Assembly (NCBI GenBank): GCA_017437065.1
Contig: JAFSBX010000034.1
Location: 1 to 37,517, forward strand
Length of the DNA stretch: 37,517 nt
Reading direction: 5' to 3'
From: Lachnospiraceae bacterium
GTDB lineage: Bacteria; Bacillota; Clostridia; Lachnospirales; Lachnospiraceae
Positions 31,045-37,517 of the stretch are shown piece by piece; within the stretch, counting starts at the first letter, position 1; every line of letters begins with the position of its first letter. The notes below the pieces were generated by a model. The model worked only from the letters and a program-made list of their open reading frames with translations. It ran no database searches and was not told the DNA's origin. Made by a program: the position numbers and the translations under genes.

Positions 31045-31084
31045 CCGTTTTGTCAAAAGATTAGTTTTCAGCTAATCCATACAT

Positions 31085-31250
31085 TTAAGGTGTCAGGAAA
31101 CATTTTGTGTTTGTCCTGATGAAAAGGGAAACAGGTGCAAATCCTGTACGAACTCGTCACTGTAATTAGGAAGTTTTGGTAATATGCCACTGAATTTTTT
31201 GGGAAGGCTGCCAACGCGTCAGACCTATAAGCCAGGAGACCTGCCTTAAA
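31085..31250 (+). ncRNA. Cobalamin riboswitch
   Basis: The plus strand shows the ordered hallmarks of the adenosylcobalamin aptamer: AAAAGGGAAACAGGTG near 31122, the CGTCACTGTAA region near 31155, TGCCACTG near 31184, GGGAAGG at 31201-31207, CCAACGCG, and the B12 box AGCCAGGAGACCTGCC at 31230-31245. It lies between the promoter at 31016-31044 and a terminator at 31339-31368, so B12 binding should switch off the DUF4430 and ECF genes by premature termination. A smaller hairpin (CTGTCT/AGACAG, 31301-31316, followed by TTTTGTTTT) is either a second terminator or part of the switching element. Gene content (B12 uptake) agrees with the ligand. Confidence 0.93.
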
Positions 31251-31300
31251 TGAGTCATTTCAGCCACGAGTAATTGGTTATGAAACAGCAATTTGGCACT

Positions 31301-32474: not shown

Positions 32475-33455
32475 TTACATGGCACTATATTTTACAATCA
32501 GCAGTTCCACGCTCATTTTATCGTTCATTCGTCCGGTTTTTACCGCCTCGTCTGCCTCCACACATTCCGTAAGCGCCTGTTTCAAATCCTTAGACTTAAA
32601 CTTTGACGCCTGTGCTGCATATTTTCCTACTGTAAAAGGTGGAATTCCGGCTTTGGAAGCAATGGTTTTATTGTCATATCCCTTCTTCTTCATTTCCTTT
32701 ACCATCAGCAGAATATTAAACTGTCTGCCAATTAGAAATAGGATACGCATTGGTGCTTCCCGCAATGCCAGCAAATCATAGTATAACGAAAGTGCCTTTT
32801 TCTGCTGTCTGTCTGCAATAGCATTTACCATATCAAAAATCTGGTTCGTGACCTTCTGAGTGCAGATTTCTTCAATATCAGCTTCTGTAATTACATCCTT
32901 TTCCAAGCAGTAACAGAACAGCTTTTCCAGCTCTTTATGGATATTTTCCATGTCCGTACCGGTTTTATTCAGTAATAAGTTCATTGCATTTTCTGAAATG
33001 TTTTTACTTTCTCGCTTAATCATACCAAGAATCCAGCGTTTCAGCGTATGCTCATCCTGACTGGAACATTCCACCGATACCCCTTTATTGTGCACGGCTT
33101 TATAGAGCTTGCTTCTTTTATCAAGTTCAGCTTCTACAAATACAAAATTTACCGTTGGTGCAGGATTTGAAAGATATTCTGCCAGTGCTTCTCCTCCCGA
33201 TTTAAACAGTCCTGTATTTTCCAGTACAATGACTCTGCGCTCTGCCAGAAAGGGCATGGTTTCTGCCAGATCAATAATTTCTCCAACGGAAATATCCTTC
33301 CCTTCGTAATAATGGCAGTTCATTGCGTCACCGCCTGCACTGAGGGCATTTTTCAGCTTGTCTTTATACTGCTTCCGCAAATAGGCTTCTTCACCGAAAA
33401 GAAGATATACCTGACTGAATGTGTTGTTTTTTATGTCTTCGTTTATTCGCTGCAT
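32475..33455 (-). CDS. holA: DNA polymerase III subunit delta
   Basis: The 326-residue clamp-loader subunit delta opens the sliding clamp during replication. The N-terminal FSQVYLLFGEEAYLRKQYKDKL, the later TMPFLAERRVIVLENTGLF and the C-terminal RILFLIGRQFNILLMVKEMKKKG…PPFTVGKYAAQASKF match the HolA family throughout. Length is normal. It starts 22 bases after the gusA stop behind a weak site (AAAGG), so it is probably read through from gusA or from a promoter I did not identify. In many Firmicutes holA follows comEC directly; here about 3.4 kb of other material lies between them. Confidence 0.93.
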   Translation of the reverse strand: MQRINEDIKNNTFSQVYLLFGEEAYLRKQYKDKLKNALSAGGDAMNCHYYEGKDISVGEIIDLAETMPFLAERRVIVLENTGLFKSGGEALAEYLSNPAPTVNFVFVEAELDKRSKLYKAVHNKGVSVECSSQDEHTLKRWILGMIKRESKNISENAMNLLLNKTGTDMENIHKELEKLFCYCLEKDVITEADIEEICTQKVTNQIFDMVNAIADRQQKKALSLYYDLLALREAPMRILFLIGRQFNILLMVKEMKKKGYDNKTIASKAGIPPFTVGKYAAQASKFKSKDLKQALTECVEADEAVKTGRMNDKMSVELLIVKYSAM

Positions 33456-33477: not shown

Positions 33478-35304
33478 TTATTTCTCACCTTTGTAATCAA
33501 TCGGCAAGTTGTCCCAACGTTCTTTAAAGTGGAATGCTGCATCTTTCGGTTGACGCTGGCGTGTAAAAATTCCCTTCTTGTTACCATTTGCACGCATGAT
33601 ACCTTCTGTTGTCTGGAAATCTGCAAAATTCCATACTAACTCACCCTGTATCCAGTCATAACTGTCAAATACCCTGTGATTCATATCAAGGTATTCTTTT
33701 TGATATTCCTGACTCCACATTACACTTGGAAGTTTGTGTTCGGACGGCAAGGTATCCGCTCCGTACTCCGTAAAGATAAAAGGACGTTCTCCTCGAATTG
33801 CTCCCCAGCCATCCATTTCCTTACGGAATGCTGCCTCTGCATCAACCATACCATATCCGCCCATGACATACCAGCCGTAGTAACGGTTCAGACTTACAAA
33901 GTCACATACCTGCCAGCATTTACATGTATGCGGTAAACTCATCATAATTACTGCAAATGTACGTGGACGTTTCTGCATATCCAGTTCATGTGCATAATCA
34001 AAAAGATTTTCAAAATAAGGTGTGGCACTTTCATGATTGGTCTCCGGCTCATTGAGGATACTCCATGCGATAACAGAAGCATGATTCTTATCTCGCTTAA
34101 TCATGTCTTTTAATACTTCTCTATGATGTTCAAGTAAAATCGGCGTCGTTTCTTTTTCAAAGAAAGTAACCTTTTTTCCTGTCCCCTGGTTAGCTGCAAG
34201 GAAATTCATCGTACTTTCCATCAGACCGACGGCCGGAGTTTCATCAATCACTAAGAAGCCTTCTTCATCAGCCATATAATACACTTCTTCTGCATACGGA
34301 TAGTGGCTTGTACGGAAACAGTTAGAGCCAATCCATTTCATCAATTCAAAATCACGTTTCACAGTAACCATATCCAGACCACGGCCTCTGATATCCGCAT
34401 CTTCGTGTTTTCCGAAACCTTTCAGGTAAACCGGCTTGCCGTTTAATAAGAAATGACCGCCTTTTACTTCAAAAGTACGGATACCGATTGTATCATAGTA
34501 CTCATCAATTACAGTATCTCCGTCTACAATTTTTACTACGAATTTGTAGAGATATGCGGCATGCACATTCCACAGTTTCACATCTTTTACAACAATCGTA
34601 CCTGTTTTTCCGTTTGCTTCTGCAACCTTATTTCCTTTTTTGTCATAAACCTCAACCAACACATTGTTTTGGCCGGTAGTTTCAACCACATAATCTACTT
34701 CTGCATCACTGCCTGTAATACGATGATTTACCGTGAAATCCGTAATACTTTCTTTTGGTAACATTAACAGTTTCACAGGACGCTGAATACCTGCGTAATT
34801 ATAGAAATCAAAGTATGGCTGGCTGATTTTTTTACCATTAGATAAAGTCGCTGTAGCTCCACATGGAATCATTGTTTCACTCAGTTCATTGTTTGCCTGC
34901 ACACAAAGCTTGTTGTACTGATTGTATTTCACTACATCATTGACACAAACATTGAATGGCAAGAAACCGCCCACATGGCTTCCTACTTCTGTTCCGTTTA
35001 CAAATACGCGGGCTCTGTGTGTTACCGAACCAAAGCGGATAACGATTTCATTGTCTTTCCATTCCCCCGGAACAAAAAAATCCGTTTCGTACCAGAAATC
35101 ACCCGTATACTCTCTGCTGTCTTTGTCTGTAAAAATATCACAGAAGCTTGCCGGAACCGGCATGGAACAGGAATCCGGCAACCCCTTTGTCCAGTTCTCT
35201 TCTACACCTTTACTTGCCGGATCAAACTGAAACTTCCACATACCGTCCAGCGAAATAACACGGCGGGTTTCCGTAACTCTTGGATACAATAGTGATTGAA
35301 TCAT
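33478..35304 (-). CDS. gusA: Beta-glucuronidase, glycoside hydrolase family 2
   Basis: A 608-residue cytoplasmic enzyme that releases glucuronic acid from glucuronides. It has the jelly-roll, Ig-like and TIM-barrel domains of GH2. The acid/base is E419 in SILNEPETNHES and the nucleophile E513 in IFTEYGADT. RANGNKKGIF holds the N575-x-K577 pair that reads the glucuronate carboxylate and separates glucuronidases from galactosidases. The active-site loop after DETPAVGLMEST is long, as in the E. coli (loop 1) class that acts on small drug and steroid glucuronides. AAGGAGG lies about 8 bases before the ATG; a promoter and paired direct repeats lie upstream. No glucuronide transporter or uxu genes are adjacent. 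Confidence 0.95.
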   Translation of the reverse strand: MIQSLLYPRVTETRRVISLDGMWKFQFDPASKGVEENWTKGLPDSCSMPVPASFCDIFTDKDSREYTGDFWYETDFFVPGEWKDNEIVIRFGSVTHRARVFVNGTEVGSHVGGFLPFNVCVNDVVKYNQYNKLCVQANNELSETMIPCGATATLSNGKKISQPYFDFYNYAGIQRPVKLLMLPKESITDFTVNHRITGSDAEVDYVVETTGQNNVLVEVYDKKGNKVAEANGKTGTIVVKDVKLWNVHAAYLYKFVVKIVDGDTVIDEYYDTIGIRTFEVKGGHFLLNGKPVYLKGFGKHEDADIRGRGLDMVTVKRDFELMKWIGSNCFRTSHYPYAEEVYYMADEEGFLVIDETPAVGLMESTMNFLAANQGTGKKVTFFEKETTPILLEHHREVLKDMIKRDKNHASVIAWSILNEPETNHESATPYFENLFDYAHELDMQKRPRTFAVIMMSLPHTCKCWQVCDFVSLNRYYGWYVMGGYGMVDAEAAFRKEMDGWGAIRGERPFIFTEYGADTLPSEHKLPSVMWSQEYQKEYLDMNHRVFDSYDWIQGELVWNFADFQTTEGIMRANGNKKGIFTRQRQPKDAAFHFKERWDNLPIDYKGEK

Positions 35305-35605: not shown

Positions 35606-36409
35606 CTATTCAACGCAAAATAACCTTCTTATTAATCCATCCAATGTTCTTGTATTTAGTGGTTTTTTACTTGTCTCATAAGTAATGAACAAATTAACAC
35701 CAAGATAAATTCCACTTCTTTCATATGAACTTAATTTGAACATCACATTGTCCACATAATTAATATCATCCATCATTCCCAAATGCTCCAAATACACTTC
35801 TTCTCTTGTCGGCATCCGAAGAATTGTAAAGTCCGGATATATTTTAATATTCTCTTCCAACGTAAGTGGATATTCATATCGATATGGTATTCCTAACGCA
35901 TACAATTTGTCAGCAATAATTTTTTCTGATTTAGATCTGACTTTCTCTCCTCTTTCAGTAATTATTTCCTGTGAATCATCTTTAAATACTTTTCCCTCAT
36001 ATTCCACCGCTTGCCACTTTTCTATATATTCATCATCCGGTATTATAGGCGCACAGATTAATTCTCTTCGATATTGATTTGTTTTCTGATATATTTCCTC
36101 TAAGCTTGTTTTTTCATAGTTTTTCAGAAATGTATTGATTGCTTTCACCCTCTCCTCCGCATTTTTAACCACGCAAGCATCATAATCTCTCTGTGCAATC
36201 TCCATGGCAAGTCTGGCTTCACTCTTTTTTATATATTTGCCATTACTATTACTACTGTCATTATTTTTGTAATAATATTCTACACCACCACGCTTTTTCG
36301 TAATACGTAAATTTCCTTTCGGTGCATTTTCAAGCCTTTTCGTGGCTTCATCCACAATTTTTCTGAGTTGATATATTTCTTTTTGAAGTGTATTTTCAAT
36401 TGTTTTCAT
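35606..36409 (-). CDS. PD-(D/E)XK nuclease-like protein with coiled coil and small beta domain
   Basis: A 267-residue soluble protein. Residues 1-30 form a coiled coil. RITKKRGGVEYYYKNN…GKYIKKSE (35-63) resembles the small three-strand DNA-binding domain seen at the front of integrases. Residues 64-115 are helical. The C-terminal half has a PD-(D/E)XK-type pattern: RSKSEKIIADKLYALGIPY (E162), IYPDFTI (D193) and VYLEHLGMM (E208-H209, in place of the more usual E-x-K). I know similar uncharacterised proteins as a multi-copy group in clostridial genomes, but no function. AAGGAGA precedes the ATG. Directly upstream on the minus strand is a 53-bp hairpin array. DNA or RNA cleavage is inference from the motif. 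Confidence 0.75.
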   Translation of the reverse strand: MKTIENTLQKEIYQLRKIVDEATKRLENAPKGNLRITKKRGGVEYYYKNNDSSNSNGKYIKKSEARLAMEIAQRDYDACVVKNAEERVKAINTFLKNYEKTSLEEIYQKTNQYRRELICAPIIPDDEYIEKWQAVEYEGKVFKDDSQEIITERGEKVRSKSEKIIADKLYALGIPYRYEYPLTLEENIKIYPDFTILRMPTREEVYLEHLGMMDDINYVDNVMFKLSSYERSGIYLGVNLFITYETSKKPLNTRTLDGLIRRLFCVE

Positions 36410-36431
36410 TGTAAGTTCTCCTTTCTCTCTC

Positions 36432-36930
36432 CCGGCAACGATTATTCGTTATTATCTTTCTGCCGGATATACTGTTTCTTCCCGACTTAATACTTCTTTT
36501 TCCTATTTAGTCGGGTTTCACAACTACTCCCCTCCGACTAATTACATTTTTTCTTCGTTTAGTCGGTCTACAAGTCCTCCTCCTACCCGACTAATTGCAT
36601 TTTTGGCTCGTTTAGTCGGTCTGCAAATCCTCCTCCTACCCGACTAATTGCAATTTTTGCTCGTTTAGTCGGTCTACACATCTTCCTCCTGACCGATTAA
36701 TTACAATTTTTGCTCGTTTAGTCGGTCTACACGTCTACCTCACGACCGACTAATTGCATTTTTTCTTCGTTTAGTCGGTCTACACGTCTACCTCCTACCC
36801 GACTGATTGCATTTTGAGCTCGTTTAGTCGGTCTACACAATTACCACTTACCCGACCAGTCTCTTTTTTACAATTTAGTCACGCTCTAAATGTCTTCCTC
36901 CGACAAAACATTAACTTTCACCTTTTAGTC
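36432..36930 (+). repeat. Tandem array of ~9 hairpin units with a 53-bp period
   Basis: Left stem arms CCGACTAA (or near variants) begin at 36482, 36534, 36587, 36640, 36693, 36746, 36799, 36852 and 36900, so the steps are 52, then 53 six times, then 48. In units 2-7 each is matched 17 bases later by TTAGTCGG, giving an 8-bp stem; unit 1 has a 7-bp stem. Loops are T-rich (TTGCATTTTTGCTCGT type), and the linker TCTACACGTCTACCTCCTAC is also conserved. Units 8-9 are decayed, and the last overlaps the comEC stop codon. An isolated CCGGCA/TGCCGG hairpin (36432-36466) stands one step before unit 1. The period is not a multiple of three, so the array is not coding. I show it on the plus strand because stem variants pair only in plus-strand RNA. 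Confidence 0.92.
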
Positions 36931-37517
36931 ATGTTTCAGCCAGCCTCGTATCTCCATCTTCTGTCTATATTTCACACTTATTGCCCCATGCTCCGGTGTT
37001 GTCAATATTCTGCTCCCTACAGACTCAAGTCTCTCTAATGTCTCCTCATGAGGATGTCCATAGGAATTATCCTCTCCACAAGATATCACCGCCACTTGTG
37101 GTCTTACTCTCTCCAAAAATTCCTCATCTGTAGAATACATGGAACCATGATGTGCTACCTTTAATACCGTCAATGATTTTCCACGCATCTTCTGCCTCAC
37201 TTTTTCACTTAATATCTGCTCCGGCTCTCCTGTTACATCTCCTGTAAATAGTGCCGAAAATTCTCCATACGTCAAATAAAGCACAATTGATTGTTCATTC
37301 TTATCTTCCGGTTTCAGTACGGCTGCATCCGCTTGTCCTACACTTTTCTCCATATCAGAAACAGGATTTAAACATTCCATCTGCATCTTACCATCAGTTA
37401 TCAAGTCCCCAGACTTTATATAAACAACTTCAATTCCTTGTTGCCGTGCAAGAATCTCCAGCCTGTCACATCCTTCTTTTATTTCTTCCTTTATTTCTTC
37501 TTTTATTTCTTCTTTTA
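36925..37517 (-). CDS. comEC: ComEC DNA-uptake channel protein, C-terminal part (cut by window edge)
   Basis: The frame is open to the right edge; 196 residues are visible. It is the C-terminal metallo-beta-lactamase-like domain of ComEC/Rec2: FSALFTGDVTGEPEQ, VLKVAHHGSMYSTDEEFL and the late GHPHEETLERL are its signature blocks. ComEC forms the membrane channel for single-stranded DNA in transformation, and this domain is thought to degrade the non-transported strand. Near the edge, four 12-base steps encode a KEEI repeat followed by GCDRLEIL, a charged coiled-coil insertion unlike the rest of the domain. The membrane and OB domains lie outside the window, so completeness cannot be judged. 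The stop codon overlaps the decayed last unit of the hairpin array. Confidence 0.88.
   Translation of the reverse strand, partial: KEEIKEEIKEEIKEGCDRLEILARQQGIEVVYIKSGDLITDGKMQMECLNPVSDMEKSVGQADAAVLKPEDKNEQSIVLYLTYGEFSALFTGDVTGEPEQILSEKVRQKMRGKSLTVLKVAHHGSMYSTDEEFLERVRPQVAVISCGEDNSYGHPHEETLERLESVGSRILTTPEHGAISVKYRQKMEIRGWLKHD
37474..37517 (-). repeat. 12-bp coding tandem repeat in comEC
   Basis: AAAGAAGAAATA (with one AAG variant) repeats in tandem on the minus strand, at least 3.5 times up to the window edge, encoding (KEEI)n. In-frame 12-bp units can expand or contract without a frameshift. The full copy number is outside the window. Confidence 0.75.

Follow-up and report, generated by a model that had tools for sequence, protein, structure and literature searches.

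Sites that are repeated in helical phase beside the gene of a presumed binding protein are found at iteron-controlled origins and in phased operator arrays. RAYT proteins (TnpA-REP), in the parts of the two accounts drawn on here, are HUH/tyrosine transposases that act on a GTAG-tagged stem-loop (PMC8049555; PMC8266576). Type III toxin-antitoxin systems (ToxIN, CptIN, and TenpIN), as excerpted from one account, carry tandem repeats upstream of a nuclease gene, and these repeats differ between loci (PMC4627078). We found no description of the arrangement presented below in the open-licence literature, in which few terms were tried. Because the arrays of related genes share geometry and not sequence, and because arrays have spread to many places in some genomes, it appears to be a genetic system of a new kind, made of two parts, and not a repeat of local origin: it is somewhat more likely than not that the array DNA provides the predicted sites for a cognate nuclease, which would act in trans and spread arrays directly or indirectly.

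The window, by which we mean the entire 37,517-bp stretch of Lachnospiraceae DNA that was analysed, contains the following features at and around the array.

31071-31262, plus strand: cobalamin riboswitch (118.9 bits), 5′ of plus-strand sequence
32475-33455, minus strand: holA (DNA polymerase III delta), which in relatives borders the locus on its other side
33478-35304, minus strand: glycoside hydrolase family 2 gene, between the nuclease-like gene and holA
35606-36409, minus strand: unnamed gene for a 267-aa nuclease-like protein, 71 bp 3′ of the array
36410-36480, minus strand: 71-bp leader between the array and the nuclease-like gene; by eye, a GGAG that resembles a ribosome-binding site precedes the ATG
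36481-36950, minus strand: nine-unit array, with seven good units and two degenerate ones (the last two); the units are 36481-36533, 36534-36585, 36586-36638, 36639-36691, 36692-36744, 36745-36797, 36798-36850, 36851-36901, and 36902-36950
36925-37515, minus strand: C-terminal part of ComEC/Rec2, the upstream neighbour; the contig ends inside the gene

The array consists of the arms TTAGTCGG and CCGACTAA in alternating directions. The dyad TTAGTCGG-N20-CCGACTAA is 36 bp across and is separated from the next by a gap of 17 bp; TRF assigns the array a period of 53 and a score of 419. Seven good units with stems CCGACTAA...TTAGTCGG are present as the original prediction described them, in addition to the two degenerate units. 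Its eight steps of 52-53 bp hold for six, as the steps from one 3′ arm to the next are 52 bp, 53 bp (five times), and then 51 and 50 bp for the last two. The copies are alike, the units having expanded in tandem, and the final unit overlaps the end of comEC, running over its stop codon. A 12-bp tandem repeat at 37473-37517, which reaches the contig end, encodes the KEEI repeats of ComEC.

The gene next to the array encodes a protein for which no Pfam or NCBIfam family was found. Its N-terminus (residues 1-118) comprises a coiled coil plus a beta region, and its C-terminal half resembles a PD-(D/E)XK domain in which E162, D193, E208, and H209 are invariant in all 29 aligned relatives. The same relatives match PADLOC models for PDC-S68 (29/29, best 3e-30), PDC-S69 (27/29), and HEAT_CxxC_PD-DEXK (21/29). 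The structure is predicted with a pLDDT of 92 and a pTM of 0.67; the N-terminal 119 residues have a pLDDT of 93.5, and no solved structure or DNA-binding fold matched this region. An AP2-like DNA-binding domain, suspected there by eye, found no fold support and was rejected. Foldseek returned weak matches, the best with an E value of 0.004 and none at or below 0.001, which include Bax1, DrdV, MunI, MspJI, and R2. Because these matches are weak and the N-terminus matches no DNA-binding fold, we call the protein nuclease-like, of the PD-(D/E)XK type, on the basis of its sequence.

Of 100 genomes from the source's taxonomic family, 39 have relatives of this protein, some of these being matches only to the C-terminal domain of longer proteins. 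A scan of named genomes gave at least 567 confirmed stretches, and the best 80 of these were retained; with 29 others they form a set of 109 loci, from which one (L029, with 7 bases upstream) was excluded and of which 102 have sufficient upstream sequence. The set contains seven clusters of the same or nearly the same locus and reduces to 94 clusters at 75% protein identity. An array was counted when it lies within 700 bp 5′ of the gene. By an unbiased 6-mer periodicity test, arrays are present in 61 of the 102 upstream stretches versus 3 of 115 controls 3 kb away (Fisher 2e-22), with no significant array in the other 41; after de-duplication, 54 of the 94 clusters have one. Alternating inverted 7-mer arms occur in 45/102 upstream stretches and 0/122 controls (Fisher 5e-19), and at a lower score in 69/102 and 6/122. 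TRF arrays with a period of 40-120 lie within 500 bp 5′ of the gene in 34 of 71 loci, compared with 0% to 14% in the other nine distance bins, the highest value being that of the adjoining upstream bin. The arrays of relatives differ from that of the window in sequence and share its anatomy. The original prediction is thus partly supported: arrays do occur in other genomes, and the conserved partner gene that it proposed to look for beside them exists as the nuclease-like gene family. The nuclease-like gene and the dispersed copies described below had been missed.

Within the window clade, the periodicity test fails in 5 of 16 loci. Arm-spacing analysis shows arms in two of the five (L049 and L057); another two (L047 and L055) have the appearance of decayed arrays, and in the fifth (L048), a close relative beside comEC, no array was seen by eye. 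In L030, L037, L043, L094, and L122, arrays lie 3′ of the gene or on both sides. The same arms flank the nuclease gene on both sides at L094 5315-7457, L037 1017-2624, L043 1096-3569, and L030 149-2203, where the gene is placed as if inside one array. The methyltransferase partner of a restriction-modification system was not found; among 512 neighbor ORFs of 80 loci, partners from outside the comEC-holA neighborhood recur only in groups of 3-5 loci at scattered positions.

The spacing of the arrays is quantised in helical turns. A length of 53 bp is close to five turns of B-DNA. Among 54 independent arrays, 27 have periods of 51-54 bp, 7 of 62-64, 10 of 73-75, 2 of 84, and 4 of 104-106, some of this last class being doubled 52-53 units; the remaining four have periods of 41, 44, 70, and 113. 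A common divisor of 10.25-10.5 bp fits these periods best (R 0.84). With the 53 and 106 classes removed (n=23), R is 0.76 at 10.5 bp with a maximum of 0.78 at 10.2 bp, and none of 5000 random sets reaches as high. Within an array, one arm spacing is fixed and the other varies by whole helical turns, giving periods of about 53, 63, 74, 84, and 105 bp; spacings a turn apart also occur inside single arrays (64/42/31 in L117 and 63/62/51/52 in L073). Protein sites along one DNA face would be expected to show whole-turn spacing, for which an RNA offers no obvious cause; this lends support to the helix phasing and probable one-face sites first proposed for the window.

Arm sequences appear to be private to each gene. 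Across 55 arrays, arm sequence tracks protein similarity (Mantel r 0.38, with 0 of 2000 permutations as high), a correlation to which common descent can contribute. One genome (G073) has seven paralogues with seven different arms, one set irregularly spaced. In other multicopy genomes, 5′ arms were found for two of three copies in G009 (the third has 200 bp upstream), two of three in G041, none of two in G017, one of three in G043 (irregular; two of the three have clear 3′ arrays), and one of two in G081 (the other has them 3′).

The window clade comprises 16 tree rows with support of 100/99. It adjoins comEC in all 12 loci with enough upstream sequence, and holA is within reach in 13 of 15. 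Two genomes of the same genus carry neither array nor nuclease there: no gene separates comEC from holA in G031, and two other genes do so in G299. On account of these two genomes, we rejected the idea that the array is an ancestral, fixed part of the comEC-holA interval. From this placement and these exceptions, we infer that the module has kept the same position across many genera, its arms drifting meanwhile, and that elsewhere it was lost or never gained. The glycoside hydrolase family 2 gene is likewise missing from the interval in both genomes. The interval of G299 (L149 4555-5758) contains, besides its two other genes, a 33-bp match to the cobalamin riboswitch region of the window; the comEC-holA interval thus takes up cargo that differs between species. 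At L087, L095, and L109, the nuclease belongs to another clade and comes immediately after a pair of ribosomal protein genes, which by eye are rplM-rpsI. The tree also holds six Spirochaetota rows and one Fibrobacterota row; the periodicity test is significant in two of the six and not in the Fibrobacter row, and arms are also present in L072 and L117. An origin from phages or plasmids was rejected because relatives are few in such sequence sets: one among 26 candidate stretches from viral contigs, four partial matches in 72,556 plasmid records with none covering 80% of the protein, and three matches in 50,697 phage records, one of them near-full and in a 4.2-kb unannotated faecal record.

Copies of the array also occur away from the gene. 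In the genome of the window, TTAGTCGG-N20-CCGACTAA with up to three mismatches has 52 matches versus 25 for a control pattern, so many of the three-mismatch matches are due to chance. The exact pattern AGTCGG-N20-28-CCGACT has 39 matches versus 3 for its control; all 39 have a spacing of N20, and they are spread over 11 contigs. The dyad AGTCGG-N20-CCGACT is present in at least ten other intergenic arrays of this genome, in which one nuclease-family gene was found. Thirteen further regions that we retrieved all contain intergenic arrays with a period of 52-54 bp, where "intergenic" sets aside ORFs that lie mostly inside an array. Since two contigs (C70 and C115) end and one (C117) begins inside arrays with shared units, these may be parts of fewer loci. 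In L176, L179, L180, and L259, contigs end or begin inside arrays. Because contigs stop in this way, dispersed arrays probably break assemblies and are under-counted.

The dispersed dyads co-occur with the nuclease. Among 397 genomes of the taxonomic family, four (G000, G064, G200, and G221) encode a closely related nuclease (E <= 1e-70). The exact dyad TAGTCGG-N18-20-CCGACTA is found in three of the 397 (G000, G200, and G221), all with the nuclease, and in none of the other 394 (Fisher 4e-7, assuming that both searches drew the same 397 genomes). Dyads are present in G221 and in six of the seven genomes to which nuclease loci led, with 3 to 31 dyads in each; G200 is probably the same genome as that of L053, so the two are not independent. 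In the form searched for, the dyad is absent from the seventh (G313), from the nuclease-bearing G064, and from G006, which has a distantly related nuclease; G064 is 61% complete, and both G064 and G313 have changed arms. It is also absent from the nuclease-lacking G031, G299, and G003, and G010 has one isolated match with a different spacing. In a second clade (TACGGTT-N-AACCGTA), dyads occur in five of six nuclease genomes and in one of 16 others (a single match). In one member (G028) they are spread over nine contigs, at about eleven places in all, and two (G413 and G414) have them at one place each. In a third clade (G044), all five dyads are in the linked array and none were found in 16 controls; G070 has no dyads. 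Spreading is therefore not universal, as dyads are confined to the nuclease locus in G044, G413, and G414 and are missing from G070.

Dyads of the same genome are of nearly constant length, and from one genome to another this length changes by about 1 bp. By relaxed matching, 76/89 dyads are 34 bp long in G000, 27/29 are 33 bp in G221, 21/22 are 33 bp in G312, 15/19 are 33 bp in G310, and 11/11 are 34 bp in G308; all 14 clustered dyads of G200 are 34 bp long, and in G028 24 of 29 are 37 bp. The genes that flank dispersed arrays differ between genomes, save for the nuclease locus and three single-protein matches, and these unshared neighbors do not suggest a fixed regulon.

Together, the two parts of the proposed system would be a nuclease-like protein of the PD-(D/E)XK type, chromosomally encoded and about 270 aa long, and an array of inverted dyads, each about 33-41 bp across, with whole-turn spacing and usually directly 5′ of the gene. 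The protein may bind the dyads as an oligomer, cooperatively and along one face of the DNA, in which case the linked array could be the operator or landing pad of the protein. Breaks at dyads or close to them, followed by repair, would both expand the units and seed new intergenic sites, and the dispersed arrays would be non-autonomous copies arising through the action of the protein in trans. We suggest more tentatively, as a possibility somewhat short of probable, that there are families of such nucleases with private, helically phased addresses, which amplify and seed their arrays by site-specific breakage and repair, such that orthogonal systems coexist within a genome.

A reading in terms of DNA architecture or regulation, which we consider somewhat unlikely, would make the protein an array-binding organizer or repressor, similar to an iteron-binding initiator or a partition protein, with its nuclease fold idle or otherwise used and the dispersed arrays selected for a regulatory or architectural role rather than spread by the protein. 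The helical phasing, the uniform dyad geometry, and the intergenic position of the arrays all fit such a role; however, it does not account for putative catalytic residues that are invariant in 29/29 relatives, nor for dispersed arrays whose neighbors differ from genome to genome except at the nuclease locus and in a few single-protein matches. That the array is an ordinary minisatellite beside the gene by chance is very improbable: tandem expansion of units and the likeness of copies within an array are what it predicts, but the same anatomy with a different sequence recurs beside homologous genes, the controls already contradict a chance placement, and the dispersed copies are tied to the nuclease.

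Alternatively, transcription of the array could yield a repeat RNA by which the nuclease is bound and kept in check, in the manner of a type III toxin-antitoxin system. The tandem repeats directly 5′ of a nuclease-like gene and the many orthogonal copies per genome are consistent with such an RNA. Mismatches between arms in gene orientation number 35 GU, 25 AC, and 69 other in the 45 linked arrays (31, 22, and 74 by an alternative pairing) and 67, 48, and 59 in 29 arrays with flanking genes in one direction (67, 45, and 72), for which p is 0.09 and 0.047 on non-independent cells. The excess of GU over AC, which favors the RNA, is a weak lean toward the sense strand, opposite to the strand originally proposed, and such wobble counts support an RNA at most weakly, as non-wobble mismatches are as frequent as GU. 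The two stem substitutions said to keep U-G or G-U pairing on the plus strand do so, yet two-sided changes are seen in none of the eight stem pairs of the window array; the plus strand is moreover antisense to both the partner gene and comEC, and neither the mismatch counts nor the stem changes support a structured plus-strand RNA. Both strands fold better than 100 of 100 dinucleotide shuffles (z -6.65 plus, -4.92 minus), which is what any inverted repeat gives. In 27 of 29 cases, the strand that carries the flanking genes is rich in purines within the array; this sign of transcription was discarded because 46 of 48 control intergenic stretches share the skew, often less strongly. Known RNA families found in the window are limited to the cobalamin riboswitch, away from the array, and 20 array loci gave two tRNAs and no array family in Rfam. 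On the strand of the nuclease gene, nothing in the 71-bp leader resembled a promoter or a terminator, and no terminator-like site was found in 36300-37050; at the window locus, array and gene thus lack such a site between them. Spacing quantised in helical turns, solo arrays lacking the gene, and the absence of a ToxN/CptN/TenpN-type Pfam match also argue against this reading, which we regard as improbable.

If the two-part system proposed here is correct, it would represent a second, unrelated class of enzyme that maintains populations of dispersed repeats in bacterial genomes. Its many natural pairs of enzyme and address, with matching geometry, would allow the coevolution of nucleases and their sites to be studied and offer a way to follow the expansion and spread of tandem arrays in bacteria, and they may be a source of orthogonal site-specific nucleases. 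It would also give a reason why some contigs from gut and rumen end inside such arrays, as in several loci here.

Each of the known systems shares some of these features. Iteron origins likewise place helix-phased sites near the gene of a presumed binding protein; here the sites are inverted dyads with a period of 5 to 10 turns that are dispersed on the chromosome, and Pfam and NCBIfam scans found no replication-initiator family. The candidate defence proteins PDC-S68, PDC-S69, and HEAT_CxxC_PD-DEXK in PADLOC have the same C-terminal domain, but the PDC-S68 models are about 1200 aa long, whereas the protein described here is small, with an N-terminal region of its own and an accompanying array. 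The array is not a CRISPR, as originally recognized: the spacers are as conserved as the units, Pfam scans of six window proteins gave no cas gene, and there is no cas-like partner among the recurrent neighbors of related loci, which belong to the comEC region. With type III toxin-antitoxin systems, as far as the cited excerpt describes them, the locus shares tandem repeats that lie directly 5′ of a nuclease or nuclease-like gene and are very different between loci, whereas it differs in its protein family (Pfam and NCBIfam scans gave no ToxN/CptN/TenpN-type match), longer units, whole-turn spacing, solo arrays, and absence of evidence for an RNA pseudoknot (PMC4627078).

By analogy, the closest way of working appears to be that of RAYT and REPIN, of which two defining features are not found here: none of 29 family members has a Pfam match to an HUH/tyrosine (Y1) transposase, and a GTAG beside the stem is not shared among the unit consensuses of 32 arrays. 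Compared with the REPtron (a RAYT with its REP, BIME, or REPIN sequences), to the extent that the cited portions cover it, the protein at this locus is PD-(D/E)XK-like, an invariant GTAG is missing, and the repeats form tandem arrays in helical phase (PMC8049555; PMC8266576). It resembles the REPtron in that a chromosomal gene is kept vertically at one place, as in the window clade, and that matching inverted, non-autonomous repeats are scattered in intergenic DNA and co-occur with the gene (PMC8049555; PMC8266576).
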